DNA from: Aquiflexum balticum DSM 16537
GTDB lineage: Bacteria > Bacteroidota > Bacteroidia > Cytophagales > Cyclobacteriaceae
Direction of reading: 5' to 3'
Length of the DNA stretch: 64,000 nt
Assembly (NCBI RefSeq): GCF_900176595.1
Contig: NZ_LT838813.1
Span: 5,350,001 to 5,414,000 of the forward strand
In this document: positions 17,604-61,042 of the stretch, piece after piece
Layout: the number at the start of each line of letters is the position of its first letter
How positions within the stretch are numbered: position 1 is the stretch's first letter
Position numbers and translations under genes: made by a program
Notes under the pieces: model-generated
Seen by the model: the letters and a program-made list of their open reading frames with translations, nothing else
What the model was told of the DNA's origin: nothing
Databases searched by the model: none

Positions 17604-17714
17604 GTTCTTGTTTCTTGTTTCTTGGCTCTTGTTTCTTGGCTCTAACTTCTCGCCTCTCGTCTCTCGCTTCTACTTTTTGCTTCTCTTGTTTTAAACCTCA
17701 CATCTCATATCTCC
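17604..17714 (-). repeat. Degenerate 7-bp tandem array at the 3' end of the DUF819 gene
   Basis: Sixteen or so heptamers in one phase, such as TTCTTGT, TTCTTGG, CTCTTGT, CTCTAAC, TTCTCGC, CTCTCGT. On the minus strand they read as NNNAGAN (ACAAGAA, CCAAGAG, GCGAGAA). The array ends 5 bp from the stop of the minus-strand DUF819 gene, so the GA strand is the mRNA-sense strand and points away from the gene. Confidence 0.8.
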
Positions 17715-17719
17715 AAACT

Positions 17720-18970
17720 CTACCCATGCACCATCTGCATCAGTAAACCACAAATATAAGCTCCATAGGTTCCAACAGCATAACCCAAAACGGCCATCAA
17801 TACGCCAACAGGGGCCAATGAGGGATTGAATGCTGAAGCAACAATCGGTGCAGAGGCTGCACCACCGACATTCGCCTGAGAACCTACCGCAACAAAGAAG
17901 AACGGAGCCTTGATCAGAAATGCTACCACCAACATAATCAAAATATGAAATATCATCCATAGAATCCCTATCAAGAAAAGTATTGGACTGTCAAATATAG
18001 CCATCAGATCCATCTGCATACCAATAGTCGCTACAAGAACATACAAAAGTACTGAACCCAGCCGAGATGCTCCTGCACCCTCCAATTCCCGGGCTTTGGT
18101 AAAAGACAATATCAATCCGCCTGTAGTTGCGATTACCACTATCCAGAAAAAGGGAGAATCCAAGGAATATTGACTCAACTGAGGATAATTGGCTGCTATA
18201 TGGGGTGCCACTATATCTGCAATGAAATGTGAAAATCCTGTTATGGCAAAACCTATCCCCAGAATTTTCATGGTATCGGCCAAGGTTGGGATTTTGAGTA
18301 TGCCTGCACGGTAATTTTCCACTTTGACCTGGAGCGCATAGATAGCTGAACTGTCTGCTTTGAATATCTGATCTATCTTCCCGGGTTTTGCAGCCCAATA
18401 AAGCAATACTGCCATCCACAGATTGGCAACCAAAACATCTACAGCAATCATCTGAGAAAACAGTGATGGACTTGCACCGAATACTTCCAACATGGCCGTC
18501 TGATTCGCCCCCCCTCCTATCCAACTACCAGCTATAGTAGCTAGGCCACGCCAAACTTCATCCGGACCTGCTCCGCCCAATATTTCAGGATGAAAAGTAG
18601 AAATCACCAATAGTGCCAAAGGACCTCCAATTATAATTCCCAATGTCCCTGCAAGGAACATGATCAGCGCTTTTGGTCCAAGCTTGAGGATTCCTTTGAA
18701 ATCAATACTCAACGTCAGCAATACCAAGGAAGTTGGCAATAAATACCGGGAAGCTACTTTGTACAGACCAGAAAGCTCACCCGAAATCACGCCAAAGGAA
18801 TTGAGCAAAGCCGGTATGAAATAACAAAGTAAAATAGAAGGAACAACCCTGTAAAATTTGACCCAAAAAGAAGATTTACTTGAAGAAGTTGAAAACACCA
18901 AAGCCAATACAGTCATCAACAAACCAAAAACAACAGCATCATTGGTGATCAAAGGGGCATTTTCTTCCAT
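17720..18970 (-). CDS. DUF819 family membrane protein
   Basis: A 416-residue polytopic protein with about ten to twelve hydrophobic segments and little soluble sequence. Features of the DUF819 (YjcL-like) family are a Gly-Ser-Trp-Ile-Gly-Gly-Gly-Ala-Asn half-way re-entrant-like motif (about residues 161-169) and a near C-terminal Gly-Ser-Gln-Ala-Asn-Val-Gly-Gly-Ala-Ala-Ser-Ala-Pro. The two Gly/Asn-rich motifs suggest an inverted-repeat transporter fold, as in sodium-coupled carriers. The substrate is unknown. A second, diverged DUF819 protein is at 30710-31972. Its 3' end abuts a heptamer array. Confidence 0.85.
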   Translation of the reverse strand: MEENAPLITNDAVVFGLLMTVLALVFSTSSSKSSFWVKFYRVVPSILLCYFIPALLNSFGVISGELSGLYKVASRYLLPTSLVLLTLSIDFKGILKLGPKALIMFLAGTLGIIIGGPLALLVISTFHPEILGGAGPDEVWRGLATIAGSWIGGGANQTAMLEVFGASPSLFSQMIAVDVLVANLWMAVLLYWAAKPGKIDQIFKADSSAIYALQVKVENYRAGILKIPTLADTMKILGIGFAITGFSHFIADIVAPHIAANYPQLSQYSLDSPFFWIVVIATTGGLILSFTKARELEGAGASRLGSVLLYVLVATIGMQMDLMAIFDSPILFLIGILWMIFHILIMLVVAFLIKAPFFFVAVGSQANVGGAASAPIVASAFNPSLAPVGVLMAVLGYAVGTYGAYICGLLMQMVHG

Positions 18971-19017
18971 AGTATTTTTTTGTTTGTCTTACAACAATAC
19001 CACAAAAGCAAGAAACT

Positions 19018-19656
19018 TCAAAACTTGGTAGAATCCCATAAATAAGTGAATTCACCGAGCATCATCGCAGTTGCTCCCCAAATCACCTCCTGCTCAATAT
19101 CAAAATATGGCGCTTCCAAACTCAAACCGGAACTCGCACTTACTTTGGTGACTTTACGAATATTCTTATCCAATAACAACGGGAAAGGGCAATTGATAAT
19201 CCTTTCAACTTCCTTTGGGTCGGGATGAAAAATGGGAGTTTCTTCCAAAAAACCTATGTACGGGGAAACCATGAAATTGCTCGGGGGAATATAAACATCC
19301 GACAATTTGCCCAATAATTTTACCTTGCTGGCATCAATACCGATTTCCTCCTCAGCTTCTCTGATGGCCGTAATGCTCAAATCCGAATCTTCAGGCTCCC
19401 ATTTTCCTCCGGGAAGGGCTATCTGACCTCCATGAACTCCCGGATAACTCGGCCTTTTTATGAAGGGAATAAAACTATTGTCTGCATCAGGATAAAATAG
19501 CATCAAAACAGCCCCTTTGCGATGGTCATCACGAATCATGGACGCAAAACGCTTTTCATCTATAGGCTGCGGAGACATGGTAATTTGACCCAATCTCCCC
19601 GGCAATGGATGCTCTAGCATCAACTCAAGTCTTTTTACAACTTTCTTTAAATCCAT
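19018..19656 (-). CDS. CoA pyrophosphatase-type Nudix hydrolase
   Basis: A 212-residue Nudix protein. The Nudix box runs Gly-Gly-x-x-Glu...Arg-Glu-Ala-Glu-Glu-Glu-Ile-Gly near residues 83-106. It is preceded by Gly-Gly-Gln-Ile-Ala-Leu-Pro-Gly-Gly, the extra motif of the CoA-pyrophosphatase (NudL/UPF0035) group. It probably cleaves CoA or related dinucleotides to a 4'-phosphopantetheine product and 3',5'-ADP. The start is 47 bp upstream of the DUF819 gene on the same strand, so the two may share a transcript. Confidence 0.88.
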   Translation of the reverse strand: MDLKKVVKRLELMLEHPLPGRLGQITMSPQPIDEKRFASMIRDDHRKGAVLMLFYPDADNSFIPFIKRPSYPGVHGGQIALPGGKWEPEDSDLSITAIREAEEEIGIDASKVKLLGKLSDVYIPPSNFMVSPYIGFLEETPIFHPDPKEVERIINCPFPLLLDKNIRKVTKVSASSGLSLEAPYFDIEQEVIWGATAMMLGEFTYLWDSTKF

Positions 19657-19785
19657 GGTATTTCTCCTGATTTTAAATAAACTCTTTCAAATTAAAAAAC
19701 TCCAAATTATTCGCTGAGGTTCATGCCAATCAACTACTTTGATTAATGTTGAAAATATTCCCAACAAATTGGATTCTCCAAGTCG

Positions 19786-20454: not shown

Positions 20455-20502
20455 AGAAATGAAATATGGAATTGCGAATGAAGCATAAAATCCCCAAAAA
20501 TC

Positions 20503-20535
20503 AAAAAAGGTCAGAACATTGCGCTGACCTTTTTT
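20503..20535. terminator. Bidirectional terminator-like hairpin in a divergent promoter region
   Basis: AAAAAAGGTCAG (20503-20514) and CTGACCTTTTTT (20524-20535) make a 12-bp perfect stem with a 9-nt loop and T-runs on both strands. It lies between two divergent genes (lipoprotein on minus, aceK on plus), so no gene ends here. It may be an attenuator in the lipoprotein leader or the end of a small RNA. Confidence 0.7.
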
Positions 20536-22664: not shown

Positions 22665-22668
22665 AGGA

Positions 22669-30386: not shown

Positions 30387-30550
30387 CACATTTGGTTACT
30401 TTTCTTGTTTGGGATTTTTTTCATGCAGGAATTTATCCGATGGGGATGAAAATAGCTTCTGACTATTTCCAAAAAGGGCTGGGAAAATCCTTGGGTCTGT
30501 AAGTTGGGGACTTGGTCTAGGGTACAGCTTTCCCTTATTTGATCAGGTCC
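30387..30550 (+). pseudogene. Remnant of an MFS transporter gene
   Basis: In one frame from about 30393 the translation reads Ala-Gly-Ile-Tyr-Pro-Met-Gly-Met-Lys-Ile-Ala-Ser-Asp-Tyr, then Lys-Gly-Leu-Gly-Lys-Ser-Leu-Gly-Leu. After a TAA at 30500-30502 it continues in the same frame as Val-Gly-Asp-Leu-Val-Leu-Gly-Tyr-Ser-Phe-Pro. This is the helix 4-5 region of a major-facilitator transporter with an internal stop and no start or end. The remnant breaks off where a dispersed repeat begins (30554), so insertion or recombination there may have destroyed the gene. Confidence 0.6.
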
Positions 30551-30553
30551 GAA

Positions 30554-30642
30554 GTCGGAAGCCCGATGTACTGGACATTTCAGTTTCTTGGCGAGAATTA
30601 TATTGAATTACCAATTTACTGGCATCATTTCGTACATCCATG
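30554..30642 (+). repeat. Dispersed ~88-bp repeat, copy 1
   Basis: Matches 51938-52025 at about 85% identity by eye with one 1-bp gap. The common core includes CCGATGTACTGGACATT and GCGAGAATTA. Both copies are intergenic and on the plus strand. It abuts the MFS remnant. It encodes nothing recognisable. Confidence 0.75.
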
Positions 30643-30709
30643 ATTTTATTTTAAATTCAAGAAATTTTCCCATTCTGACAGTGTAATTATAGCACTAACC
30701 CAAACCTAT

Positions 30710-32097: not shown

Positions 32098-33564
32098 ATG
32101 AAACAACCTAAGAAAGAATCTTCTGGCAAGTCCCGCCGGGAATTTATCAAAAATGCAGCCATCGCCTCATCAATTTTTATCGTTCCAAGACATGTGCTCG
32201 GAGGAGTTGGTTTCACCGCCCCCTCTGACCAATTGAATCTGGCTGCAATTGGAGCAGGAGGAAAAGGTTCAAGTGACATCATGAATGCTTCCGTCAATGG
32301 TCGTGAAAGAGTCATTGCACTTTGCGATGTCGATTTTTCCGGCTCTGCAAAAAGATCCGTTGAGAACTTTCCCAAAGCCAAATTGTATGCTGATTACAGG
32401 GAAATGTTGGATAAAGAAAAGGATATTGATGCCGTGACCATTTCCACACCTGACCATGTCCATGGACCGGCAGCTTCCATGGCCATGCAAAAAGGCATAC
32501 ATGTCTATGTACAAAAGCCCATGACCCATAACATCAAGGAAGCAAGAATGCTGACCGAAATGGCAAGAAAGCAGAAGGTAGTCACTCAAATGGGTAATCA
32601 GGGCGGATCCAATGAACTGCTGAATATGGTCCAAAAATGGGTGGATTCCGGTAAATTGGGAAAAATATCCAAAGTTCAGGTCTGGACCAACCGACCTGTT
32701 TGGCCTCAGGGTTTTGCCTTTCCTCAACCTGAACCCAGCAAAAAGCCAAATGACCTAAATTGGGATCTTTGGCTTGGTCCGGCTCCGGAAATTCCTTTTA
32801 CTCCGAATTTACACCCTTTCAATTGGAGAGGTTGGTGGAATTATGGTACAGGGGCCCTTGGAGATGTGGGCTGCCATTTGATTGACATTCCATTTAGGAC
32901 CTTAGGATTGCACTATCCCAAAAGTGCTGAATGCAGCGTAGGCACTGTATTCACCCGTATGTGGACACCCGATTATCATCCTGAAGGCTGCCCTGCTTCT
33001 TCTTTCATCACCCTTCACTTCGCTGCCACGGATAAAAGCAAATCTCCCATAGAAATGACCTGGAGTGATGGCGGCATCAGACCTTCTCATCCGGATATCA
33101 TTCCGGCAGACCATGATATTGGCGGTAAAGACAGTGCCAATGGTGTTCTCATTATCGGGGAAAAAGGAATTATTTCAACAAACATCAATGATAGTTCCCC
33201 ACTGATGCCTAAATTATACATGAATGATGGCACTACAGAATTCGGGCCTGAAACGGAGGAGAACATTGAACCGGAATATGGACACCAAAGAAAATGGGTG
33301 GATGCCTGTAAAGCAGGTTTTGGCAGTGCAGAACACAAAGGATTGACTTCCTCCTTTGACTATGCCGGTCCTATGACGGAAACAGTTTTGATGGGAAATC
33401 TTGCAATCCGAAGCTACATGCTGAGAAGAGAAAACAGCAAAGGACAAATGGAGTTTTATGGCCGAAAAAAATTACTTTGGGATGGGGACAACATGTTGAT
33501 CACCAACCTGGAGGAAGCCAATCAGTTTGTGGGGAGAGAACATAGAAAAGGGTTTGAGATGTAG
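32098..33564 (+). CDS. Tat-exported Gfo/Idh/MocA family oxidoreductase
   Basis: 488 residues. The N terminus carries a twin-arginine signal (Ser-Arg-Arg-Glu-Phe-Ile-Lys-Asn-Ala, about 12-20) with a hydrophobic run to about residue 35. The NAD(P)-binding Rossmann domain follows (about 42-170; Ala-Ala-Ile-Gly-Ala-Gly-Gly-Lys-Gly) with the Gln-Lys-Pro-Met-Thr motif (about 139-143), then the C-terminal substrate domain. Tat export implies folding with NAD(P) before transport to the periplasm. Such proteins act on sugars or polyols in Bacteroidota; the substrate here is unknown. A GATGACC heptamer array starts at its stop codon. Confidence 0.88.
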   Translation: MKQPKKESSGKSRREFIKNAAIASSIFIVPRHVLGGVGFTAPSDQLNLAAIGAGGKGSSDIMNASVNGRERVIALCDVDFSGSAKRSVENFPKAKLYADYREMLDKEKDIDAVTISTPDHVHGPAASMAMQKGIHVYVQKPMTHNIKEARMLTEMARKQKVVTQMGNQGGSNELLNMVQKWVDSGKLGKISKVQVWTNRPVWPQGFAFPQPEPSKKPNDLNWDLWLGPAPEIPFTPNLHPFNWRGWWNYGTGALGDVGCHLIDIPFRTLGLHYPKSAECSVGTVFTRMWTPDYHPEGCPASSFITLHFAATDKSKSPIEMTWSDGGIRPSHPDIIPADHDIGGKDSANGVLIIGEKGIISTNINDSSPLMPKLYMNDGTTEFGPETEENIEPEYGHQRKWVDACKAGFGSAEHKGLTSSFDYAGPMTETVLMGNLAIRSYMLRRENSKGQMEFYGRKKLLWDGDNMLITNLEEANQFVGREHRKGFEM

Positions 33565-33651
33565 GGTTGGATGACCGATGTTGGATGACCGATGACCGAT
33601 GTTGAAGACAGAAGAAGGGAGACCGGAGACGGATGACCGAAGTTGGTGTCA
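33565..33651 (+). repeat. Degenerate 7-bp tandem array after the oxidoreductase
   Basis: Heptamers in one phase: GATGACC, GATGTTG, GATGACC, GATGACC, GATGTTG, AAGACAG, AAGAAGG, GAGACCG, GAGACGG, ATGACCG, AAGTTGG. The phase continues back through the stop codon (GAGATGT, AGGGTTG). The GA strand is the mRNA-sense strand of the oxidoreductase. Confidence 0.8.
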
Positions 33652-34765: not shown

Positions 34766-35112
34766 TATTTTAAGACTCTATTTTTTTTGGTTGATTTTAA
34801 CTTTTGAGTTTTCTTTTTGAAATATATATATATCAGCATTCATGCCGGTAAATCAATTTAAGGGCTTAAAATTTCGGTCGATTGCCTTTTCCGGTAGCTT
34901 CTGTCATCGGTCATCGGTCTTCCGTCCCAAAAAACAAAGGAAATTTGGATAGCGGCCCAGTTGCGGATAATCATATTGAAATATAAATTAAACCCATTTA
35001 AACTTGAGCACAATCAATTGGCTTTGTGACAATTATCATATTATTTTAATACCATTTTTGATATTTTTATCCTATTAAAATTAAATCCTATAACCTAAAA
35101 ATTTAAAAAACC
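34766..35112. other. 350-bp intergenic region, hutG to hsp20
   Basis: No credible ORF. It holds T-rich and AT-dinucleotide tracts (34770-34850), a short inverted-orientation heptamer array (34901-34928), and the presumed hsp20 promoter region (35000-35100), where I found no exact TAnnTTTG box. No CIRCE-like inverted repeat was seen. Confidence 0.4.
34901..34928 (-). repeat. Short 7-bp tandem array (GGTCATC type)
   Basis: TGTCATC, GGTCATC, GGTCTTC and CGTCCC read as GATGACC, GAAGACC and the like on the minus strand, the reverse complement of the array at 33565-33651. The two arrays lie in inverted orientation on either side of hutG. Confidence 0.65.
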
Positions 35113-35559
35113 ATGGGCGCACTAACAAAAAGAAATGGAGGTTTTTGGCCAAAAATGGTTCAAGACTTCTTCGGAACAGAAAACCCATTTGATTGGGATG
35201 AGAAATTCTGGTATCCTGAAAAATCAATTGAAATCCCTTCATGCAACGTGATTGAGAATGACAAAGAATTCAAACTTGAATTGTCTGCACCGGGATTTGA
35301 CAAGAAGGACTTCAAAATTGATATCAGCGATGGTATCCTAAGCATCAGCGCAGAGAAAGAACACAAAGCTGAAGAAGAAAAAGACAATTATAGAAAAAAA
35401 GAATTCTCTTACTCCAGTATCAGACGTTCTTTCAGTCTGCCTGAAAACGTAAAGGATGAAAATATTGATGCCAAATATGACAAAGGCATTTTGAAAATTG
35501 TTCTTCCAAAAAAAATGTTGGAAACAAGTAAACCCAAAAAAGCAATCGAGGTTGCTTAA
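35113..35559 (+). CDS. Hsp20/alpha-crystallin small heat-shock protein
   Basis: 148 residues. The alpha-crystallin domain spans about 38-135, starting with Ile-Pro-Ser-Cys-Asn-Val-Ile-Glu and holding Ala-Pro-Gly-Phe-Asp-Lys-Lys-Asp-Phe and the Gly-Ile-Leu-Lys-Ile-Val-Leu-Pro-Lys C-terminal strand. The short N-terminal arm is aromatic-rich (Trp-Asp-Glu-Lys-Phe-Trp-Tyr). It is an ATP-independent holdase that forms oligomers in the cytoplasm. The gene is monocistronic with a strong terminator; heat or stress control is expected, but no known element was seen. Confidence 0.93.
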   Translation: MGALTKRNGGFWPKMVQDFFGTENPFDWDEKFWYPEKSIEIPSCNVIENDKEFKLELSAPGFDKKDFKIDISDGILSISAEKEHKAEEEKDNYRKKEFSYSSIRRSFSLPENVKDENIDAKYDKGILKIVLPKKMLETSKPKKAIEVA

Positions 35560-39389: not shown

Positions 39390-40660
39390 GAAAGTCTATC
39401 CCCAACAATCCCTGGTATTGGGTACCGCCTTTGTATCTGACAGAAGGAATCCCCTATGTATTGATTATTACGGTATCTGTCATTATGTACAAAAATCTGG
39501 GGGTTGACAATTCAGCTATTGGGCTTTATACGAGCTTCCTTTATTTACCATGGGTCATCAAACCTTTTTGGAGCCCCTTGGTGGACCTTTATGGTACCAA
39601 GAGAAAGTGGTTCCTTGCTATGCAATTGGTACTTTCCCTTGCTTTTTTGGGCGTGGGACTTTCTCTTCCCACCAATCAGTTTTTTATCATCAGTCTTGCT
39701 TTCTTTTGGTTGGCTTCCTTTGCCTCAGCTACCAATGACATTGCCTCAGATGGATTTTATCTTCTTGCCTTAAAAGAAGAGCAACAATCCTTCTTTATAG
39801 GTTTGCGCAGCACATTCTATAGAGTTGCTATGGTTACGGGACAAGGATTATTTGTGATTTTTGCTGGCTATCTGGAAGTGAAATACGGTGATAATACCAA
39901 AGCTTGGTCTCTCACTATGGTGATGATTGCTGCATTGATGTTTATACTCACATTGGTAAACTTCCTGGTCACACCCAATGTCGAAAAAGCAAAAGATTAT
40001 ATCAAAGAAGAAAGCCTGACATTTTGGAAAGTGTTTGAAAGCTTTTTCAGGAAAAAGGAAATCTGGGTCGCTTTGGCATTTATCTTGTTTTACCGTCTTG
40101 GAGAGTCTCAATTGGTCAAAATGGCCTCACCATTCTTATTGGACAGCAGAGAAGTCGGAGGGTTGGCATTAAGCACCTCTGATGTTGGATTGATCTATGG
40201 GACTTTCGGGATAATTGCCCTCTCCTTAGGAGGAATTATTGGAGGCATAGTGATTTCCAGGGACGGATTGGGAAAATGGATGCTGCCCATGATTTTGGCA
40301 CTCAATGTTCCTAATTTCTTTTATTATGTTTTGGCTTACTTCCAACCTGAATCTGCTTTCTATGCAGGCGCAGTGGTGGTCATAGAGCAATTGGGCTATG
40401 GATTCGGATTTGCGGCTTTTATGATGTATCTGATTTATGTATCAGAAGGGCCTTCCAAAACCTCCCATTATGCCATTGCCACCGGATTTATGGCTTTGGG
40501 AATGATGCTTCCGGGAATGGCCTCAGGATTTATTCAGGAAGCATTGGGCTACCCTGGGTTTTTTATCTGGATTGTTATTGCTGCTTTCCCCGGAATCCTC
40601 ATGGTCAGATATGTGAAGTTTCCATATGAATATGGGAAGAAGAGGGGAAGTGGGGAGTAG
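39386..40660 (+). CDS. AmpG-like MFS permease
   Basis: A 424-residue major-facilitator protein with about twelve membrane helices. The first helix motif Pro-Leu-Tyr-Leu-Thr-Glu-Gly-Ile-Pro-Tyr and the loop Lys-Pro-Phe-Trp-Ser-Pro-Leu-Val-Asp are typical of the AmpG (SLC33-like) branch, which imports anhydromuropeptides. Between amidase and NagZ genes this is the likely uptake step of cell-wall recycling. The C terminus is short and Lys/Gly-rich (Lys-Lys-Arg-Gly-Ser-Gly-Glu). Those last codons are purine-rich heptamers in phase with the array that follows, so the array may have rewritten the tail. Confidence 0.85.
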   Translation: MRKSIPNNPWYWVPPLYLTEGIPYVLIITVSVIMYKNLGVDNSAIGLYTSFLYLPWVIKPFWSPLVDLYGTKRKWFLAMQLVLSLAFLGVGLSLPTNQFFIISLAFFWLASFASATNDIASDGFYLLALKEEQQSFFIGLRSTFYRVAMVTGQGLFVIFAGYLEVKYGDNTKAWSLTMVMIAALMFILTLVNFLVTPNVEKAKDYIKEESLTFWKVFESFFRKKEIWVALAFILFYRLGESQLVKMASPFLLDSREVGGLALSTSDVGLIYGTFGIIALSLGGIIGGIVISRDGLGKWMLPMILALNVPNFFYYVLAYFQPESAFYAGAVVVIEQLGYGFGFAAFMMYLIYVSEGPSKTSHYAIATGFMALGMMLPGMASGFIQEALGYPGFFIWIVIAAFPGILMVRYVKFPYEYGKKRGSGE

Positions 40661-40882
40661 GAAGGACAGGATTTTGACCGATGTTGGATGACCGATGTTT
40701 GGTGGGAAGTGGGAAGTGGGAAGTACATGACCGATGTTGGATGATCGATGACCGATGTTTGGTGGGAAGAGGGAAGTACATGACCGATGCTGGATGACCG
40801 ATGACCGATGTTTGGTGGGAAGTGGGAAGTACATGACCGATGTTGGATGACGGATGACCGATGTTTGGTTGGAAGTACCATG
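40638..40882 (+). repeat. 53-bp tandem repeat built of 7-bp units, before nagZ
   Basis: Three full 53-bp units (40676-40728, 40729-40781, 40782-40834) and a partial fourth (40835-40882) differ by a few bases. Each unit is itself a heptamer array: GATGTTG, GATGACC, GATGTTT, GGTGGGA, AGTGGGA, AGTACAT plus GACC. Purine-rich heptamers continue back into the last codons of the AmpG-like gene. The unit length is not a multiple of three, so the frames through it are not real. Confidence 0.92.
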
Positions 40883-40911
40883 TCTTGATTCTTGGTTCTT
40901 GTCTCTTGATC
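40883..40911 (-). repeat. 7-bp tandem array (TCTTGAT type) before nagZ
   Basis: TCTTGAT, TCTTGGT, TCTTGTC, TCTTGAT in one phase, ending 8 bp before the nagZ ATG. The GA-rich strand is the minus strand, opposite to the 53-bp array that it abuts, so the two face each other. Confidence 0.75.
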
Positions 40912-40918: not shown

Positions 40919-42496
40919 ATGAAATCTCAAATCACAAATCACACTGTAGTGGAAAAACTCAAAAAAATAGGCCAATTATTTTCTCCAGCGGCATTTATAC
41001 ATGATACGGAGGAAAATATACTTAAAATGGAGTCATTGATTCGAAACCAATTTATTGGGGGGATCACTTTTTTTCATAGTCGATATAGTGCCGCAGCCAA
41101 TTTTGAAAAAAGACAGGAGAAACTTTCTGTTGAGAATACTTTGGAAAAATTACACCTGCTTATCCAACGCTATCAAAAAATTTCCAATACCCCGCTCCTC
41201 TTCAGCATCGATGCAGAATTCGGCTTGGCTATGCGTATTGAAAACTCTCCGCAATATCCTTATGCAATTTCCTTGGGCGCCATGTCCGAAAATAATGTTG
41301 AATTGGTTTTTGAAACAGGTTTTAGGATCGGAAAAGACCTTAAGCAATCAGGCATTCATTTGAATTTTGCTCCGGTGGCGGATATCAATACCAATCCCAA
41401 GAATCCGGTGATCGGATACAGATCCTTTGGAAAAGACAGAAATAAAGTCAGCAACTTCGCTATTGCCATGTACCAAGGAATGACTTCAGCGGGTATAGGG
41501 GCCTGCTATAAGCATTTTCCCGGGCATGGAGATACTGATGTGGATTCTCATCTCGGTCTTCCTGTAATCAATAAGAATAAGTCTCAACTGATCAATGAAG
41601 AACTCTATCCATTTTTGGAAGGCATCAACAAAGGAATTGATATGATCATGGTGGGACATCTCGCTGCCCCTGCCCTGAGTAATGGACAGCATATTCCCGC
41701 ATCCATTTCAAAGGAAATCATCACCGGATTTCTCAAAAAAGAACTTGGATTCAAAGGCATCGTTGTTTCTGATGCCCTAAATATGAAAAGTGTCAGCAAC
41801 ATGTTTGCCGAACCGGGAATGTTGGAATGGGAAGCTTTCAATGCAGGAAATGATATTCTATGTTTCTCTGAAAATGTAAAAGAGGGTATACATATGATTG
41901 ATCAAAAAGCAGATAAAAAACAGATCGATGAAAGTTTTCAAAAAATCATGCAGCTGAAAGAAAAACTGGGACTGCATAATCAGGAAAGTTTTCATTTTCA
42001 GGGTTTTGATTGGGACAAACACCATGCATTCAATCAACAATTGACAAAAGAATATATTTCGGTAATATCAGATAAGTCATCCCCTTCCGGAATTCATTTA
42101 GACCTTGAAAATAGAAAAACTGCTCTGGTATCTATTTATAAAGAAAAAGATAATCCTTTTTTTAAGGGTATTGACCCGAAAAGCCTTATCCCTAAATTCG
42201 GGATTAACCAAAACCAAGAATTTGAATTTGAAAAACTTGATGATTTTGAAAGTGTTTTAATAGCACTTTTTGTGCCATCTGCCAAGCCTGTCAATCATTT
42301 TGGATTGGAACTTGGATTGATGAAAAAAGTCGGAGAAATATCTGAAAATAAAAAAGTGGAACTATACCTTTTCGGTACTCCACTTTGTCTGAATGATATC
42401 CCAAACTTATCCAATTTCCATAAAATAGTCTGTGCTTATCAGGATTTCGAAGTAGTTCAAATTGAAGCCGCACAGTTTTTCCTCGAAGGGAAATAA
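40919..42496 (+). CDS. GH3 beta-N-acetylhexosaminidase, NagZ-like
   Basis: 525 residues without a signal peptide. The GH3 barrel (about 10-350) has the NagZ signature Lys-His-Phe-Pro-Gly-His-Gly-Asp-Thr-Asp-Val-Asp-Ser-His near residues 199-212, whose second His is the acid/base in NagZ enzymes. The nucleophile is D285 in Val-Val-Ser-Asp-Ala-Leu-Asn-Met-Lys. A C-terminal domain (about 380-525) is extra to the single-domain enterobacterial NagZ. It would cut GlcNAc from imported muropeptides in the cytoplasm, the step after AmpG. It is separated from the AmpG-like gene by 258 bp of repeats. Confidence 0.88.
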   Translation: MKSQITNHTVVEKLKKIGQLFSPAAFIHDTEENILKMESLIRNQFIGGITFFHSRYSAAANFEKRQEKLSVENTLEKLHLLIQRYQKISNTPLLFSIDAEFGLAMRIENSPQYPYAISLGAMSENNVELVFETGFRIGKDLKQSGIHLNFAPVADINTNPKNPVIGYRSFGKDRNKVSNFAIAMYQGMTSAGIGACYKHFPGHGDTDVDSHLGLPVINKNKSQLINEELYPFLEGINKGIDMIMVGHLAAPALSNGQHIPASISKEIITGFLKKELGFKGIVVSDALNMKSVSNMFAEPGMLEWEAFNAGNDILCFSENVKEGIHMIDQKADKKQIDESFQKIMQLKEKLGLHNQESFHFQGFDWDKHHAFNQQLTKEYISVISDKSSPSGIHLDLENRKTALVSIYKEKDNPFFKGIDPKSLIPKFGINQNQEFEFEKLDDFESVLIALFVPSAKPVNHFGLELGLMKKVGEISENKKVELYLFGTPLCLNDIPNLSNFHKIVCAYQDFEVVQIEAAQFFLEGK

Positions 42497-44125: not shown

Positions 44126-45625
44126 TCATTGTATATCCTTCACTTCACCTTGACTCAATTGAAGTACCTTGTCCACACATGCAGGTATATCTTCTTCATA
44201 ATGGCTGACATAGATAATTGAAATTGGCATGAGGTGGCAAACCTGATCAATTGTTTTTCGGAATAATTTTCTTTGCAATTCATCCATGCCTTGTGATGCC
44301 TCATCCAATACAAGTAGTGCCGGTTTTTTTATCAAAGCTCTAGCCAATAAAACAAAACGCTGATTTTCCAGTGAGACCTGTCTCAACAATAAGTTCGCAG
44401 TGCTTTCAAGTCTGAACAATTTCAACCAGGCCAATGCTGTTTTTTCCTGTTCCGGGCTGACTTTCTTAAACAATCCCATAGTATCAAATAAACCTGAAAG
44501 CACCACTTTCAGACAAGTTTGATTAGCCGGAAAAAACCTGCTTAACTCAGGAGCGACAAAACCAATGTTTTTTTTGATGTCCCAAATGCTTTCACCTGAG
44601 CCTCTTTTCCTGTCAAACAGCCAGAAATTATTGGAATAGGCCTGCGGATTTTCTCCCAAAATCAAACTCAATAGCGTAGACTTCCCTGCCCCATTCTCGC
44701 CTTTCAGCAACCACTTTGAATTTGGCAATACGGTCCAGTTGATATTATTCAATATCTTTTTATCTCCATAGCGGACACACACATTTTCCATTTCCAGGAT
44801 TTTTTTAAAATCCGTTTTTTTGGCATCTCTTAACAATTCCCCCATTAATAAATGGTCAAATCCATTGCCGGAATCAGTGTCCAACTCGAGACCATTCAAT
44901 TCTTCGACTTGGATAACTTTAGACACTTTTTGGTCGGCCAATACTGCAACATGTGTTATTGATTCTGGGATTTCATCACTGTGGGCCGTTAGCATCAAAT
45001 GGATCCCGCTGTAGGCAATTTCTTGTAAAACCCGCCCAAAATCCATTCTTGACTGAACATCCAAACCAGTCATCGGCTGATCCATCAATAACAGTTTGGG
45101 ATTTTTCATCAATGCAGCTGCGATTGCGAGTCTTCTTGTTTCTCCATTGGAAAGTTTGATCAGTGATTTTTCTTTGAGATCATTTAGGCGCATCAAATCC
45201 AAAACTTTTTTCAGATTCCAATAACCGGGAATTTTTACTTCAATTTCACTCAGGTAATTCCATACAGTAGCTGTATCCTCAGATTCCATGGAATTGAATC
45301 GCTGCTGATAATAAAAGTTCTGGAGATTGGATTTATTCCGAAAAGTATATTGCTGGGAAACGGTGGAAATCAAATCACGAAAGGAATTGATTTCGCCTGA
45401 TAAGGTCTTTGTTTTTTGATAATCTTCTGAAAAAGGCCGGATGACATTTCCAGATGTCACCATCGTCCGCCCCAACAAAGTATCCAAAAATGCAGTCATC
45501 ATTACCCCTGATTCACCTATTACCGCCCAATGCTGACCTTCCTTCCAGTCAAATTCCATTTGATCAAATACTGTTTTGCCTTTTTGTTTAATGGTGGCGT
45601 TTTGTATCTTTATTAAGCAGGGCAT
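44126..45625 (-). CDS. Tandem ABC ATPase, ModF-like, with one degenerate site
   Basis: 499 residues with two ABC domains (about 1-230 and 265-499) and no membrane segment. In domain 1 the Walker A is Gly-Glu-Ser-Gly-Val-Met-Met-Thr, with the Lys replaced by Met, and Walker B ends Met-Asp-Gln-Pro, Gln for the catalytic Glu. Its signature Leu-Ser-Asn-Gly-Glu-Thr is good. Domain 2 has a perfect Walker A (Gly-Glu-Asn-Gly-Ala-Gly-Lys-Ser-Thr) and Leu-Asp-Glu-Ala, but a poor signature (Val-Ser-Leu-Glu-Asn-Gln). So one composite site should be active and the other dead. ModF-type proteins lack a permease partner here; the role is unknown. Confidence 0.88.
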   Translation of the reverse strand: MPCLIKIQNATIKQKGKTVFDQMEFDWKEGQHWAVIGESGVMMTAFLDTLLGRTMVTSGNVIRPFSEDYQKTKTLSGEINSFRDLISTVSQQYTFRNKSNLQNFYYQQRFNSMESEDTATVWNYLSEIEVKIPGYWNLKKVLDLMRLNDLKEKSLIKLSNGETRRLAIAAALMKNPKLLLMDQPMTGLDVQSRMDFGRVLQEIAYSGIHLMLTAHSDEIPESITHVAVLADQKVSKVIQVEELNGLELDTDSGNGFDHLLMGELLRDAKKTDFKKILEMENVCVRYGDKKILNNINWTVLPNSKWLLKGENGAGKSTLLSLILGENPQAYSNNFWLFDRKRGSGESIWDIKKNIGFVAPELSRFFPANQTCLKVVLSGLFDTMGLFKKVSPEQEKTALAWLKLFRLESTANLLLRQVSLENQRFVLLARALIKKPALLVLDEASQGMDELQRKLFRKTIDQVCHLMPISIIYVSHYEEDIPACVDKVLQLSQGEVKDIQ

Positions 45626-45629: not shown

Positions 45630-45685
45630 GGTATGAGACTGGAGATATTTGATTTTAGAATTTAGATTTTAGATTTATGATTGCT
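45630..45685 (+). repeat. Degenerate 7-bp tandem array (GATTTTA type) between dtd and the ABC gene
   Basis: Heptamers in phase: GGTATGA, GACTGGA, GATATTT, GATTTTA, GAATTTA, GATTTTA, GATTTAT, GATTGCT. The array starts 4 bp upstream of the ABC start codon (45623-45625, minus strand), and the GA strand points away from that gene. Confidence 0.75.
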
Positions 45686-47999: not shown

Positions 48000-48329
48000 A
48001 TGCTGACACCGATTAAAATTACCCATAAGGCCCAAGAAGAAATCAAAAATATCATTGCCCACAAAAACATTCCCAAAGAATATTCTTTGAGGGTCGGAGT
48101 AAAAGGCGGTGGCTGTGGCGGTATGTCCTACCTTTTAGGGTTTGATAAGCCCAAAGAAGGGGATCAGCAGTTTGTCATTGATAACATTCCTGTTTTGATT
48201 GAAAAAAAACATTATATGTTTCTTATGGGAATGATGGTGGATTTCTACGACGGAGCAGATACAAGAGGATTTACTTTTATCAACTCTGATTTACCCAAGA
48301 GGCATGATGTGCAGGATGAGGATAGATAA
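48000..48329 (+). CDS. HesB/IscA-family protein lacking the C-terminal CxC motif
   Basis: A 109-residue A-type Fe-S carrier fold. The first cluster cysteine is in Lys-Gly-Gly-Gly-Cys-Gly-Gly-Met-Ser-Tyr (about C39). The C-terminal region, where IscA/SufA have Cys-Gly-Cys, reads Gly-Phe-Thr-Phe-Ile-Asn-Ser-Asp-Leu-Pro-Lys-Arg-His-Asp, so two of three ligands are missing. It may bind iron or a cluster at a dimer interface, or have another role. The last codons (Asp-Glu-Asp-Arg-stop) already fall in phase with a GAT-type heptamer array that follows. Confidence 0.88.
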   Translation: MLTPIKITHKAQEEIKNIIAHKNIPKEYSLRVGVKGGGCGGMSYLLGFDKPKEGDQQFVIDNIPVLIEKKHYMFLMGMMVDFYDGADTRGFTFINSDLPKRHDVQDEDR

Positions 48330-48366
48330 TTGATTTTTGATTGTAGATTTTAGATTGTAGATTTTT
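48318..48366 (+). repeat. Degenerate 7-bp tandem array (GATTGTA type) at the IscA-like stop codon
   Basis: Units GAGGATA, GATAATT, GATTTTT, GATTGTA, GATTTTA, GATTGTA, GATTTTT in one phase; the stop codon TAA (48327-48329) lies inside the second unit. The GA strand is the mRNA-sense strand. Confidence 0.8.
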
Positions 48367-48479: not shown

Positions 48480-48604
48480 ATTCTCGTCTCTTGGCTCCCC
48501 GAAATTCTTCGGGACAAGCTTTGTCTCTTGGCACTTGGCTCTTGGCTCTTTTCTCTCGCTTCTCGCTTCTCGCTTCTTCTACCTCAAATCTCAATTCATC
48601 CTCT
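48480..48604 (-). repeat. Degenerate 7-bp tandem array (CCAAGAG/GCGAGAA type)
   Basis: On the plus strand TTCTCGT, CTCTTGG, then after an interruption (CCCGAAATTCTTCGGG hairpin) CTCTTGG, CACTTGG, CTCTTGG, CTCTTTT, CTCTCGC, TTCTCGC, TTCTCGC, TTCTTCT, ACCTCAA, ATCTCAA. On the minus strand the phase runs through the stop codon of the membrane-protein gene (stop at 48596). It faces the GAT-type array at 48318-48366. Confidence 0.8.
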
Positions 48605-49102
48605 TCTCTTCATTCCAAGCACTTTATCCTTTTCTTCGCCTTTCAATTTCAATGATTTCACAATCCTATCCGGGCTGGGTTTTCCAAGTGAAAAAAATAA
48701 GAGCGTTACAGCAAAAGCCATGGTGAAACCTGGATTATCAAAAAACAACAATCCCAATGCAGAAATAAACGTGGAAACAAAAAGTATCCAGAATCTTTGC
48801 ATAGTCGCCTGAGAGTACAGCGCCAACTTGGTTTCCAAATCCAAATTACCCCTCAGTATTCTTTTTATCGAAGTCTGAAAATTAAAATACTGTAAAAACA
48901 AAATTGAAACTACCAATCCCAAGCCAAAGGAATCCCAAAAAGTGGAAAGCTCGGGTAGGTCAAAGGAAAAGGTACTGTTCTGCGAATTCAGATAGACTAC
49001 CGCAAAAAAAGGAATCGGAATGGCAATCAAAATCAGCACATTCCGCTCCAGTGTTTCAAATCTTTTTTTAATCCTTTTTTCTTCCAAAATACTGTTATTC
49101 AA
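48596..49102 (-). CDS. Hypothetical membrane protein
   Basis: 168 residues with about four hydrophobic segments (about 23-40, 57-76, 103-120, 124-140), a basic helical N terminus and a Lys/Glu-rich C-terminal tail. I do not recognise a family. The last few codons (Met-Lys-Arg-Arg-Gly-stop) fall in phase with the flanking heptamer array, so the tail may have been altered by array growth. Its start overlaps the end of the reductase gene by 8 bp, so the two are probably one transcript. Confidence 0.65.
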   Translation of the reverse strand: MNNSILEEKRIKKRFETLERNVLILIAIPIPFFAVVYLNSQNSTFSFDLPELSTFWDSFGLGLVVSILFLQYFNFQTSIKRILRGNLDLETKLALYSQATMQRFWILFVSTFISALGLLFFDNPGFTMAFAVTLLFFSLGKPSPDRIVKSLKLKGEEKDKVLGMKRRG

Positions 49103-50542: not shown

Positions 50543-51889
50543 ATGAATCTCAATAACCTCACCGCCGTAAGTTCTGTAGATGGTAGATATGGCAATAAAA
50601 CCGAGCCATTAAGAGCATATTTTTCTGAATTCGCTCTAATCAAATACAGAGTCTTTGTCGAAGTGGAATACTTTATTGCGCTTTGTGAACTTCCTGTTCC
50701 TCAACTGACAGGTTTTGACCATGATCTCTTCCCCACGCTACGGAATTTGGTGAGTGATTTCAGTTTAGCTGACGCTACAAAAATCAAGGATACTGAGAAA
50801 ATCACCAACCATGATGTGAAGGCCGTCGAATACTTCCTGAAAGAAAAGTTTGATGATTTGGGACTTCAGGAATTTAAGGAATTCATTCATTTTGGTTTGA
50901 CTTCTCAGGACATCAACAATACCGCCACTCCTCTGATGCTGAAAATGGGTCTTGAAAAATGTATCCTTCCCAGTCTAAATGCTATAGTTGATAAGTTAAA
51001 GGAAAAAGCGCAAACATGGAAAGACATCCCCATGCTAGCAAAGACCCATGGACAACCCGCCTCCCCTACCCGTTTGGGGAAAGAGCTGCGCGTTTTTGTC
51101 ATCCGATTGGAAAAACAATTGGAATTGCTTTCTCAGGTTCCTTACTCAGCTAAATTTGGGGGCGCTACAGGGAATATGAATGCCCATCATGTGGCTTATC
51201 CTGAAATTGATTGGAACAGTTTTGCAGAAAAGTTTGTGTCAGCATATCTGGGTTTGGAAAGAAGCTATCCCACTACCCAAATAGAACATTACGATAATCT
51301 TGCGGCCTGTTTTGATGGATTGAAAAGAATAAACACCATCCTTTTGGATTTGTCAAAAGATATCTGGCAGTATGTGGCCATGAATTATTTCAAACAGAAA
51401 ATACAAGCCGGGGAGATTGGTTCCTCAGCCATGCCTCACAAAGTAAATCCTATAGATTTTGAGAATGCCGAAGGAAATCTTGGAATAGCCAATGCCTTAT
51501 TGGAACACTTGGCAGCAAAACTACCCATCAGCCGACTGCAAAGGGATTTGACAGACTCCACTGTTTTGAGAATTATTGGAGTTCCACTTGCGCATATGCT
51601 GATTTCTTTTGAATCCTTGTTGAAAGGACTCGGTAAATTGGAGTTGAATAAAGATGCGATTGATGCTGATTTGGATGAGAATTGGGCTGTTGTGGCGGAA
51701 GCAATCCAAACGGTATTGAGAAGAGAGGGATATCCAAAACCTTATGAGGCGCTTAAAGAACTGACCCGAACCAATGAAAAGATCACCCAAAAAACAATTT
51801 CTGCTTTTATCAATGGGTTGCAGGTTTCTGATCAATTGAAAAATGAATTGGGCAACATCAGTCCTTTTAATTATACAGGATTAAATTAA
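50543..51889 (+). CDS. purB: Adenylosuccinate lyase
   Basis: 448 residues of the fumarase/aspartase superfamily. The signature loop is Gly-Ser-Ser-Ala-Met-Pro-His-Lys-Val-Asn-Pro (about 292-302). The catalytic His region is Lys-Thr-His-Gly-Gln-Pro-Ala-Ser (about 167-174), and the N terminus Ala-Val-Ser-Ser-Val-Asp-Gly-Arg-Tyr is typical of PurB. It acts twice in purine synthesis, releasing fumarate from SAICAR and from adenylosuccinate. It is monocistronic, and the likely terminator is about 190 bp downstream. Confidence 0.96.
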   Translation: MNLNNLTAVSSVDGRYGNKTEPLRAYFSEFALIKYRVFVEVEYFIALCELPVPQLTGFDHDLFPTLRNLVSDFSLADATKIKDTEKITNHDVKAVEYFLKEKFDDLGLQEFKEFIHFGLTSQDINNTATPLMLKMGLEKCILPSLNAIVDKLKEKAQTWKDIPMLAKTHGQPASPTRLGKELRVFVIRLEKQLELLSQVPYSAKFGGATGNMNAHHVAYPEIDWNSFAEKFVSAYLGLERSYPTTQIEHYDNLAACFDGLKRINTILLDLSKDIWQYVAMNYFKQKIQAGEIGSSAMPHKVNPIDFENAEGNLGIANALLEHLAAKLPISRLQRDLTDSTVLRIIGVPLAHMLISFESLLKGLGKLELNKDAIDADLDENWAVVAEAIQTVLRREGYPKPYEALKELTRTNEKITQKTISAFINGLQVSDQLKNELGNISPFNYTGLN

Positions 51890-51937
51890 ATGGTTATCCG
51901 CTTCATTGCCAGTAACCCAATATTCTACTACAAACCT

Positions 51938-52025
51938 GTCGGATGTCCGATGTACTGGACATTCCAGTTTACTAGCGAGAATTAAATTGAATTATCATTT
52001 AATGGCATCATTGCGTGCATCCATG
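51938..52025 (+). repeat. Dispersed ~88-bp repeat, copy 2
   Basis: About 85% identical by eye to 30554-30642, same strand, with one 1-bp gap. It lies between the purB stop and its putative terminator, so it would be part of the purB 3' UTR. Confidence 0.75.
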
Positions 52026-52076
52026 TTAGGCTAAAATATTTTTGCTTCTGCGAAAGAAATTCTTAACTTTTTTTTC

Positions 52077-56888: not shown

Positions 56889-56912
56889 CTTATAAATTTA
56901 AGTTTCAAATTA

Positions 56913-59441: not shown

Positions 59442-59522
59442 GTATTTCCTTTCTAAATTTATTCTAATTCCGTAATAATGTTACCGAATTTGTTTTAAAA
59501 ACACAATCTATTTGCGGATTGT

Positions 59523-60143
59523 TCAATCATTTTTTTTTGATCGGACCAGAATCTCTTTGGACTCAGTTCCTTGACAAAACAACAAATCCAGAACGCTAAG
59601 GTTGGGTACAAAGTTTACGCCAAACATTTGACTGTATTCATATCCTGTCATGATGCTTCTCGCAGTAAATTCCTCTTTTGTATTGATTGTACCTCTTTTA
59701 TCTACATAATCTGAAATATTACCTTGACCAAATCCAATAGACACTTTGGTATCCAACTGTAAGAGTTTCAGACAAACTGTCAGTAACTCAAAGTTATGGT
59801 CAAACAAAAAAGTCAGGTTTTTATTATAGATTTCTTCCAAGTATGGAAAAAAAAACTCAAAAAAGGGTGCTTTTCCATAAGCACTCTGAATACCCCTTAA
59901 ATGAACATTCTTCCATTTTTGACCATAATCTATTTTTATTTCTTTGTAGGCCCTCTCTTTGCTCCCCCCAAAAACCGGAATGGAAAGTATCTCTACTTTA
60001 TTAGTCAATAAAATCCGTGCCCTATTCCTGTATGTTTGCTTTTGATAATTCTCCGTTCCATCAACAATAATTTCCTTGTGCCCAAGAATAGACACAAAAT
60101 ATTCAATTGGAGGGAGATAAAACAGATCTGTAATTATGGGCAT
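59523..60143 (-). CDS. WbqC family protein
   Basis: 206 residues. The WbqC signature covers the N terminus (Tyr-Leu-Pro-Pro-Ile-Glu-Tyr-Phe), Glu-Asn-Tyr-Gln-Lys-Gln-Thr-Tyr-Arg-Asn-Arg-Ala, and Gly-Ile-Gln-Ser-Ala-Tyr-Gly-Lys-Ala-Pro-Phe-Phe-Glu-Phe. The family is associated with O-antigen amino-sugar synthesis but is also widespread as a single gene in Bacteroidota; the reaction is not settled. Its start codon (60141-60143) is preceded by a 7-bp tandem repeat beginning 8 nt upstream, which may affect expression. Confidence 0.88.
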   Translation of the reverse strand: MPIITDLFYLPPIEYFVSILGHKEIIVDGTENYQKQTYRNRARILLTNKVEILSIPVFGGSKERAYKEIKIDYGQKWKNVHLRGIQSAYGKAPFFEFFFPYLEEIYNKNLTFLFDHNFELLTVCLKLLQLDTKVSIGFGQGNISDYVDKRGTINTKEEFTARSIMTGYEYSQMFGVNFVPNLSVLDLLFCQGTESKEILVRSKKND

Positions 60144-60179
60144 TTTTGGAAGGATAAAGGATAAGGGATAAAGGATAAA
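60144..60179 (+). repeat. GGATAAA x4 heptamer repeat upstream of wbqC
   Basis: GGATAAA, GGATAAG, GGATAAA, GGATAAA at 60152-60179, near-perfect and in a single 7-bp phase. It occupies -9 to -36 relative to the wbqC start codon. The GA-rich strand is plus, pointing away from the minus-strand gene. Of the arrays here it is the least degenerate and so the most likely to vary in copy number. Confidence 0.9.
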
Positions 60180-60274
60180 TGGGGGTGATTGTAAATTTTT
60201 AGGTTTTAGAACTTCCTGGCCGGCAGCTTGAAGATTTGGAATAAGAGAAGGTAGTAAGGGGTTCTTCAGTACAA

Positions 60275-60348
60275 GTTCTTATCTCGCTTCTCGGTTCTCG
60301 CATCTAGCGTCTTATGTCTTGCGTCTTGCGTCTAATGTCTCAATCTAA
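60275..60348 (-). repeat. Degenerate 7-bp tandem array at the Sua5-type stop codon
   Basis: Plus-strand heptamers TCTCGCT, TCTCGGT, TCTCGCA, TCTAGCG, TCTTATG, TCTTGCG, TCTTGCG, TCTAATG, TCTCAAT. On the minus strand they read NNNNAGA, and the TAG stop of the Sua5-type gene (60345-60347) fits the same phase (TTTTAGA). It faces the GGATAAA array across the intergenic region. Confidence 0.8.
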
Positions 60349-60974
60349 AAGATATCATCTACAGGACCCAAGCCTTCTCTAACGATTTCTATTTCATCGC
60401 CGGTACAATCAAGGATCGTAGAAGCCACGTTATTGCCGTAGCCACCATCAATCACTATATCCACCAAATCCCGGTATTTTTCAAAAATCAGTTCAGGGTC
60501 TGTACTGTATTCAATTACATCATCTTCATCCTTGATGGAGGTAGTCAATATCGGAGAACCTAATTCCCTTACCAATAATCGGGGAATGGAATGGTCAGGA
60601 ACACGGATACCAACCGTCTTTTTATTGCTATTGAGTATTTTGGGTACGTTGTTGTTTGCTTCCAGGATAAAGGTGTAAGGACCGGGAAGGGTTTTTTTCA
60701 TTATTTTAAAAACCGGAGTACTTAAGGCACGGGTATACTCCGAGATATTACTCAAATCGTAGCAAATGAAGGAGAAATTATGCTTTTTGACCTTGATCCC
60801 CTTGATAAGTGCTATACGTTCTATGGCCCTGAGGTTATGTATATCGCAACCCATACCATAGACTGTATCTGTCGGATATATAATTATCCCTCCGGCCCTG
60901 AGCACATCCACTATTTTTTGGATTTTTCTGGGGTCAGGATTTTCAGGATATAGTTTAATGAGTTCCGCTGACAT
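60345..60974 (-). CDS. L-threonylcarbamoyladenylate synthase (Sua5/YciO/YrdC)
   Basis: 209 residues, one YrdC domain. The nucleotide/phosphate pocket has [12 protein letters not shown] (about 33-44), Leu-Pro-Gly-Pro-Tyr-Thr-Phe-Ile-Leu (about 91-99) and a basic Arg-Val-Pro-Asp-His (about 122-126). It lacks the extra C-terminal Sua5 domain, so it is the TsaC/YciO form. It makes threonylcarbamoyl-AMP for the t6A37 tRNA modification, unless it is the YciO subgroup with an uncertain role. Heptamer arrays flank both ends. Confidence 0.88.
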
Positions 60975-60985
60975 GGGAGAGTGTT

Positions 60986-61042
60986 ATTTAGATTTAAGAT
61001 TTTAGAATTAAGAATTAAGATTAAAGATTAAAGATTTAAGAC
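60986..61042 (+). repeat. 7-bp tandem array (GATTTAA/GATTAAA), seven units
   Basis: GATTTAA, GATTTTA, GAATTAA, GAATTAA, GATTAAA, GATTAAA, GATTTAA at 60991-61039 with no break in phase. It begins about 15 bp upstream of the Sua5-type start codon and points away from that gene on its GA strand. Confidence 0.88.

Follow-up and report, generated by a model that had tools for sequence, protein, structure and literature searches.

Heptamer arrays at gene edges in Aquiflexum balticum

The window analysed here is a 64,000-nucleotide stretch of the A. balticum DSM 16537 genome (contig NZ_LT838813.1, positions 5,350,001 to 5,414,000), in which eleven tracts built from 7-bp units lie at gene boundaries (Table 1). 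Lag-7 identity is 0.53 to 0.82 in all eleven, against 0.16 to 0.45 at lags 6 and 8. Among 2,000 dinucleotide shuffles of each tract, none matched the lag-7 value for nine tracts, and one did so for each of 40883-40911 and 45630-45685. The heptamer tracts listed by the first-pass annotation are therefore real. Their description as intergenic is mostly right, but 40638-40882 starts 23 bp and 48318-48366 starts 12 bp inside gene ends, and two further tracts run 9 and 4 bp into the gene called to their right. No Rfam family reached the gathering threshold in the window.

Table 1. The eleven arrays of the window, with the strand carrying GA, the adjoining genes and agreement with the inward polarity described in the text; G001 is a congener of A. 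balticum.
Array	Position	GA strand	Adjoining gene	Lag-7 identity	Shuffles matching (of 2,000)	Inward polarity	Remarks
Heptamer array	17604..17714	-	runs away from stop edge of DUF819 gene 17720-18970(-)	0.62	0	yes	
Heptamer array	33565..33651	+	begins at stop codon of 32098-33564(+)	0.55	0	yes	partly common to G001
Short 4-unit array	34901..34928	-		0.76	0	no (sole exception)	array and adjoining ORF 35113-35559 have no counterpart in G001 gap
Long mixed-word array	40638..40882	+	after 39386-40660(+)	0.53	0	yes	53-bp super-repeat, 3.8 copies, at 40675-40876; gene order relative to G001 breaks at this gap
Converging array	40883..40911	-	before 40919-42496(+), start edge	0.73	1	yes	
GATTTTA-type array	45630..45685	+	start edge of 44126-45625(-)	0.65	1	yes	
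GATTTTA/GATTGTA array	48318..48366	+	stop edge of 48000-48329(+)	0.74	0	yes	
GCCAAGA/AGCGAGA array	48480..48604	-	stop edge of 48596-49102(-)	0.53	0	yes	embedded hairpin CCCCGA..TCGGGA; gene order relative to G001 breaks at this gap
GGATAAA array	60144..60179	+	start edge of 59523-60143(-)	0.72	0	yes	
AGCGAGA/CGCAAGA array	60275..60348	-	stop edge of 60345-60974(-)	0.63	0	yes	converges with 60144-60179
TTTAAGA array	60986..61042	+	start edge of 60345-60974(-)	0.82	0	yes	

A period of seven anchored on GA

The first-pass annotation proposed comparing lag 7 with lags 6 and 8 across intergenic DNA, and in the 464 kb of the genome that we sampled the lag-7 excess stands: intergenic lags 7, 14, 21 and 28 lay above mononucleotide shuffles at z = 10.9, 9.7, 6.7 and 3.3, while lags 6 and 8 gave z = 4.7 and 2.3. 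With the window left out, intergenic lag 7 was 0.306 and lag 8 was 0.289. We found 62 period-7 arrays between genes in 864 kb of the A. balticum genome (476 gaps of at least 20 bp), against 0.6 in shuffles, and 44 arrays of period 14; each other period from 4 to 13 gave 0 to 3. Seven, with its multiple 14, is the sole enriched array period between genes in these 864 kb, and 100 kb of E. coli K-12 held no arrays. The tracts had been called non-coding on the ground that seven is not a multiple of three, which alone is insufficient to exclude coding; placement is the stronger argument, as 5 of 72 arrays lie mostly within called ORFs. Gene starts in all counts came from our own ORF caller.

In 74% of 111 arrays from two species, at least 80% of the units carry GA, on either strand, at a fixed phase, with AG (62%) and AA (38%) as the runners-up. 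The earlier statement that nearly every unit has GA at a fixed position fits most arrays but not four tracts of the window, 40638-40882 (26% of units), 48480-48604 (56%), 33565-33651 (58%) and 17604-17714 (62%), where the fixed phase is weak, probably because the phase shifts within the tract. Lag z-scores, array counts and GA phase together support the general picture of degenerate, GA-anchored heptamer arrays at gene edges genome-wide.

Replication slippage might produce such a pattern if it favoured 7-base units, as a polymerase-contact idea mentioned in Rehm et al. 2015 (PMC4692102) would have it; arrays would then form in neutral sequence, drift, and come to share words through gene conversion, with no function and no link to breaks. 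The arrays occupy non-coding sequence and their unit number varies between species, a heptamer excess is reported to be widespread in bacteria (cited in PMC4692102), and period 7 is the commonest in loci from across the phylum (29, two of them N runs, against 16 for period 8). We nevertheless consider this origin rather unlikely. Variation between units is uneven, being concentrated in certain columns (p<0.05 in 32 of 61 arrays), and slippage predicts neither an orientation set by gene edges nor the 25:1 excess of convergence described below.

Inward polarity and convergence

Within the family, the GA strand nearly always reads 5' to 3' into the gap from the edge of the gene, whether that edge is a start or a stop. 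This inward edge polarity is our main new result and was absent from the earlier description of the tracts. Counted per gap (obeying/violating), it is 42/2 in A. balticum, or 42 of 44 decidable gaps, and 20/1 in the congener G001, some of whose gaps had been inspected before the count. Three other genera of the family gave 10/1 (G275), 17/0 (G287) and 2/1 (G173), in total 29 of 31, and five further genomes of the family gave 14/2. The stretches from those three genera, like the stretches from nine further genomes, were picked for a CAAGA-word pattern and not for orientation. Counted per array, a first sample gave 39 obeying, 3 violating and 1 tied, and a second, obtained after the rule had been noted, gave 18, 1 and 3. 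Polarity counts exclude five arrays mostly in ORFs, two without genes on both sides, ties and N-run arrays, although one N run is still counted among the ties in one listing.

The rule holds at stop edges (24/2 and 11/1 in the two samples) and at start edges (15/1 and 7/0). It also holds in divergent (7/0), convergent (12/0) and codirectional (39/4) gaps, and therefore follows the edges of the gap and not transcription. Adjacent array pairs converge in 25 cases and diverge in one. The median distance at which rule-obeying arrays begin is 8 bp for stops and 54 bp for starts. Purine content is not the true polar feature, as polarity is kept where the GA strand is less than 60% purine (19/2). The rule was not seen in phylum loci outside the family (11/7 with 7 ties by GA, 14/10 by purine) or in four genomes representing three other families, where the gaps split 5/5, and 20 stretches of relatives from the family and the order gave 2/2 with one tie. 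GA may be the wrong strand marker for the words of genomes outside the family.

An RNA polymerase exiting either gene edge reads the GA strand as non-template, so arrays could have been selected to hinder polymerase leaving a gene in either direction, through a purine-rich non-template strand or RNA structure. Arrays are also rarest in divergent gaps (4 array gaps against 81 divergent gaps of at least 80 bp; 10 against 53 for convergent and 33 against 230 for codirectional gaps), but promoter avoidance alone could produce that deficit. Polarity survives at low purine content, as noted above, and the folding z of two-sided gaps averages -1.15 (n = 15), with values of -2.4 or below in 4 of 15, which we assume to be due to other palindromes there. 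The three two-sided gaps of the window fold at z +0.6, -0.7 and +1.2. We regard a selected transcription effect as very unlikely. An RNA hairpin between converging arrays is likewise not generally supported by the mean over those 15 gaps, and a replacement of terminators by arrays finds no support either, terminator-like hairpins being equally common after array edges (6 of 41) and elsewhere (77 of 427).

Chi is read in one orientation by AddAB or RecBCD arriving from a break. By analogy, Chi-like words recognised by a helicase-nuclease that enters from a break in the gap would protect the flanking gene and survive pointing inward at both edges, which would give exactly the geometry seen. Known Chi is one word, however, and the words found here are many. 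We consider this explanation very unlikely.

Turnover between species

The arrays turn over between species while their geometry can persist: in the orthologous gap 60144-60344 the two-sided arrangement is kept in G001 with other words, the gap measuring 201 bp in A. balticum and 549 bp in G001. Relative to G001, gene-order breaks or larger indels touched 11 of the 19 gaps with arrays and 12 of the 53 without (p 0.006; p 0.02 with a looser array threshold), in a comparison of four regions, three of them chosen for being array-rich; among gaps of at least 120 bp the counts were 11 of 17 and 10 of 32 (p 0.026). Gene-order breaks alone, assigned by hand from match tables and each with at least one side inside a G001 contig, did not differ significantly (5 of 19 against 5 of 53, p 0.08). 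The association could also be read as repeats causing breaks. The repeats of Rehm et al. 2015 are described as showing the opposite tendency, an association with more stable regions (PMC4692102).

A stretch within 48480-48604 (e.g. 48480-48590) has 11 matches elsewhere in G001, the embedded hairpin recurs (nine found, seven in inward orientation), and by eye word order is common to several loci. All three would suit a non-autonomous, BIME-like mobile element that carries GA-type ends in inverted orientation and has inserted into gaps, with single arrays as its decayed copies. Against such an element, which we think unlikely, no common middle was noticed by eye in two-sided gaps, the words of the two sides differ, and random insertion would not begin a few bp from stop codons. 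Y1 transposases do not discriminate as a tract-linked enzyme, being found in 22 of 25 genomes regardless of arrays and missing from the array-rich G043.

A proposed role for repair at 3' ends

The edge geometry looks more like the trace of DNA-end rebuilding than like a gene switch. We tentatively suggest that the tracts may be repair-linked repeat DNA, grown on exposed 3' ends in gaps and spread by copying, and not a code read by genes. We infer breaks as the trigger, 3' extension as the step, end joining, and an enzyme. DNA broken or gapped inside a spacer would expose 3' ends, and these would lengthen in 7-base steps as an end realigned on its own repeat or copied other genomic arrays; the extended ends would then be rejoined, two of them meeting head-to-head. 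New units would be added at 3' ends, so the GA-type strand would point away from the surviving gene edge, into the gap. Selection would set only where a tract is permitted to start, right at stop codons and farther from starts, where promoters lie.

Ku is missing from all 11 array-rich genomes tested and present in 5 of 14 array-poor ones, classes that rest on a single word pattern (CAAGA words; G001 was classed by a separate analysis), so that array-poor means poor in CAAGA words. Ordinary Ku-dependent joining is therefore ruled out as the joining step. Of the 11 array-rich genomes 9 have an RVT_1 match, as do 4 of the 14 array-poor ones, and reverse transcriptase was rejected as the tract maker as the array-rich G043 and G128 have no such match. 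If end extension is true, Ku-less bacteria would have a repeat-adding route to rebuild broken spacers. It is conceivable, if doubtful, that converging arrays correspond in bacteria to the scar of a telomere fusion. On that reading, an activity that adds repeats would heal 3' ends at breaks in spacers with a small inherited 7-base vocabulary, and the healed ends would be joined head-to-head; the vocabulary would persist across genera while individual tracts came and went, and the Xanthomonas repeats with their single word would reflect the same process.

Comparison with known systems

Heptamer repeats have long been known from bacteria, with no generally accepted mechanism. The STRR of filamentous cyanobacteria are, like our arrays, tandem repeats of heptamers. 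Flexibacter litoralis is a member of the Cytophagales. The earlier view that no such repeats had been described for this order was too strong, since MacGregor 2015 (PMC4679880) reports TAACTGA heptamer repeats in five Bacteroidetes including F. litoralis, and a wide bacterial heptamer excess is also on record (PMC4692102). Like our arrays, the TAACTGA repeats are 7-base intergenic direct repeats with other heptamers alongside, in Gramella and Aequorivita; unlike ours, they are described as one word, mostly forward and lying immediately before starts in the main species (PMC4679880). No TAACTGA tandem occurs in 1.28 Mb sampled from A. balticum (G000, 864 kb) and G001 (416 kb).

REP/BIME elements are likewise described as intergenic, dispersed and often in inverted pairs (PMC2817692), but our arrays are built of 7-base direct repeats and not of palindromes, with a hairpin embedded in only some arrays. 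DRT10 (preprint PMC12632851) is reported to carry out telomerase-like synthesis of tandem short-repeat DNA, with 9-nt units in one system, as protein-primed cDNA in phage defence. It serves as a lead only, in that a bacterial enzyme can make such DNA; we found no link, and G043 and G128 are array-rich without an RVT_1 match.

The closest parallel is with the GGGAATC and GGGGA(C/T)T heptamers of Xanthomonas and Nostoc, studied by Rehm et al. 2015 (PMC4692102) as possible G-quadruplexes. These are also tandem 7-base units, mainly intergenic and dispersed, but each genome is described as using a single G-rich word, which forms quadruplexes in vitro, whereas the words here are many and degenerate. 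Exact GGGAATC, GGGGATT or GGGGACT tandems were absent from the same 1.28 Mb, and a quadruplex motif occurs in 0 of 149 arrays. The edge geometry itself is already in print for the one-word Xanthomonas repeats: their G-type strand points away from the neighbouring ORF, as the GA strand does here, they lie closer to the 5' ORF (28 against 160 nt on average), and they form 70-75 convergent pairs per genome (PMC4692102). As the same geometry arises with words lacking a quadruplex motif, quadruplexes are not its general cause. The finding of this edge-set polarity in an unrelated family moves the question of what heptamer repeats are from gene regulation towards DNA-end processing.

Polarity of heptamer arrays at gene edges

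The degenerate tandem heptamer arrays in the gaps between genes of Aquiflexum balticum have a direction that is set by the nearest gene edge, with the GA strand running 5' to 3' from that edge into the gap. Ten of the eleven tracts of the window keep this rule. The direction was noted in arrays from 20 spread 20-kb stretches of the genome before a second sample of 20 more was fetched, and gene edges were taken from a coding-score gene caller. Scored per array, the first sample and window gave 39 in agreement, 3 opposed and 1 tie, and the second sample 18, 1 and 3 (one-sided p 3.8e-5). The rule held at stop edges (agreeing/opposed 24/2 in the first sample and window, 11/1 in the second) and start edges (15/1 and 7/0), and in divergent (7/0), convergent (12/0) and codirectional (39/4) gaps. 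Counted once per gap, the ratios were 42/2 in A. balticum, 20/1 in its congener (G001) and 10/1, 17/0 and 2/1 in three other genera of the family (G275, G287 and G173), these four relatives together giving 49/3 (p 5e-12). Five further genomes of the family gave 14/2; over four genomes drawn from three other families the count was 5/5. GTAC-type arrays, often undecided by the GA measure, split 19 to 2 in favour of the rule by an AAG/CAA measure. Where arrays are adjacent, 25 pairs converged and 1 diverged (five genomes).

A polarity that is set by the edge, and that is the same at either kind of edge and in every gene arrangement, argues for a cause that acts at the level of the DNA. None of RNA pairing, terminators, quadruplexes or purine content explains it when tested as the cause. 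Slippage by itself does not predict the polarity. Extension of 3' ends inside the spacers, together with copying between arrays, would account jointly for the polarity, the convergence, the position of arrays close against gene edges and their common words. Chi-like sites, or an element with inverted ends, would be expected to give the same inward geometry as 3'-end extension.

Period-seven repeats across genomes

The first-pass annotation had proposed a genome-wide system of arrays with a strict 7-bp phase, and the intergenic DNA of the first sample and window bears out the 7-bp phase: the excess over mononucleotide shuffles was z 10.9 at lag 7 versus 4.7 at lag 6 and 2.3 at lag 8, and lags 14, 21 and 28 were also raised (z 9.7, 6.7 and 3.3). 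Scanning the 476 gaps within 864 kb of the A. balticum genome found 62 period-7 and 44 period-14 arrays; the remaining periods from 4 to 13 gave 0-3, and dinucleotide shuffles 0-1.6. The congener had 35 period-7 arrays in 242 gaps versus 0.2 in shuffles, with 0-2 at other periods up to 13, and a scan of 100 kb of E. coli K-12 returned none. Across the phylum, in 80 loci around the same gene (1.38 Mb), period 7 was commonest (29 arrays, two of them N runs), followed by period 8 (16) and fewer at the rest.

All eleven window tracts had lag-7 identity of 0.53-0.82, matched at most once per 2,000 dinucleotide shuffles each. Of 111 arrays, 74% had GA phase-fixed in 80% or more of their units, and variation was concentrated in particular columns (p<0.05) in 32 of the 61 arrays having at least five units. 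The genes adjoining the window tracts are ordinary (MFS transporter, arginase family, WbqC, Sua5, NUDIX, DUF819 and others). The window (5,350,001-5,414,000) is part of a single 5,987,095-bp contig; its adenylosuccinate lyase has its best named relatives in records of Algoriphagus, Mongoliitalea and Litoribacter and in a Cyclobacteriaceae MAG (79-81% identity), and the genome is accordingly treated as a member of the Cyclobacteriaceae.

Features of the arrays and their surroundings
Location	Feature	Observation
Window 17090-17189	100-bp dispersed repeat	6 matches in congener, 82-87% identity
Window 30549-30650	Dispersed repeat, not a plain heptamer array	Many matches in congener
Window 33565	Array	Common to A. 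balticum and congener, with changes
Window 34901-34928	Tract	Exception to polarity rule
Window 40638-40882	Tract	One inner segment opposed (coding-score gene-caller count)
Window 48497-48519	Example of hairpin type CTGCCCCGA..TCGGGGA embedded in GCCAAGA arrays	9 in samples of two species, 7 inward-oriented
Window 51881-52031	Dispersed repeat, same as at 30549-30650	About 25 matches elsewhere in congener
Window 60144-60344	Gap	Two-sided geometry kept in congener; 201 vs 549 bp
A. balticum locus L048 5636-5947	Array	Coincides with congener contig ends C36:182 and C88:216735
A. balticum 1.20-1.21 and 3.21-3.26 Mb	Eight mutually similar, full-length matches to reverse transcriptase, in two clusters	Perhaps group II introns
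Locus L256 (relative G222) 6130-6424, 13776-14084, 18811-19034	CGCTTAA-type and TTAACGC-type arrays	Words unseen in window

Turnover, rearrangement and candidate machinery

Between orthologous gaps of the two congeners both words and lengths differ, the two-sided geometry can persist, and some gaps with an array in A. balticum have none in G001. Six words occur as exact tandems in both (GCCAAGA, AGCGAGA, TTTTAGA, GGATGAA, ACCGATG and AAGTACC), several of them also in other genera. By eye, the order from the gene edge at several loci is roughly GATTTGA, GTAGA, AGCGAGA, GCCAAGA, and it is reversed in at least one (L012). The pattern CAAGA(NNCAAGA)3 is patchy: of 291 genomes in the order 22 carry it, as do 13 of the 42 in the family, with 101 copies in A. 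balticum, 57 each in G275 and G228 and 0 in most genomes. Its reversed control (AGAAC with two free bases) was found in five genomes, with 58 copies in G217 and 13 in G179, and these two therefore carry other heptamer words.

Alignment to G001 of the window from 5001 on and of three array-rich loci revealed 9 breaks in gene order along with 8 larger indels. Their edges touched 11 of 19 array gaps versus 12 of 53 others (p 0.006), 11 of 17 versus 10 of 32 when only gaps of at least 120 bp were counted (p 0.026), and 12 of 24 versus 11 of 48 with a looser array threshold (p 0.02); for gene-order breaks alone the counts were 5 of 19 and 5 of 53 (p 0.08). These alignments are at most suggestive of an association between array gaps and rearrangement. 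Contig ends of G001 fall at an array site, and draft assemblies therefore probably break at these arrays.

Genomes were classed as array-rich or array-poor by one CAAGA word pattern, so that 'poor' means poor in CAAGA words. On this basis Ku was present in 0 of 11 rich and 5 of 14 poor genomes, and RVT_1 in 9 of the rich and 4 of the poor, array-rich G043 and G128 both lacking it. Y1 transposases were present in 22 of all 25.

Comparison with known heptamer repeats

Our search of the open-access literature found no paper on heptamer-array polarity in Bacteroidota. TAACTGA repeats are the subject of MacGregor 2015 (PMC4679880), and heptamer-derived satellites are mentioned in the survey PMC6749651. 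Rehm et al. 2015 (PMC4692102) describe few paired heptamer repeats in Nostoc and report that no regulatory role was found. They place those repeats in more stable regions, whereas the array gaps studied here tend to be touched more often by rearrangement. The geometry that the same paper gives for the Xanthomonas repeats follows the polarity rule seen in our arrays.
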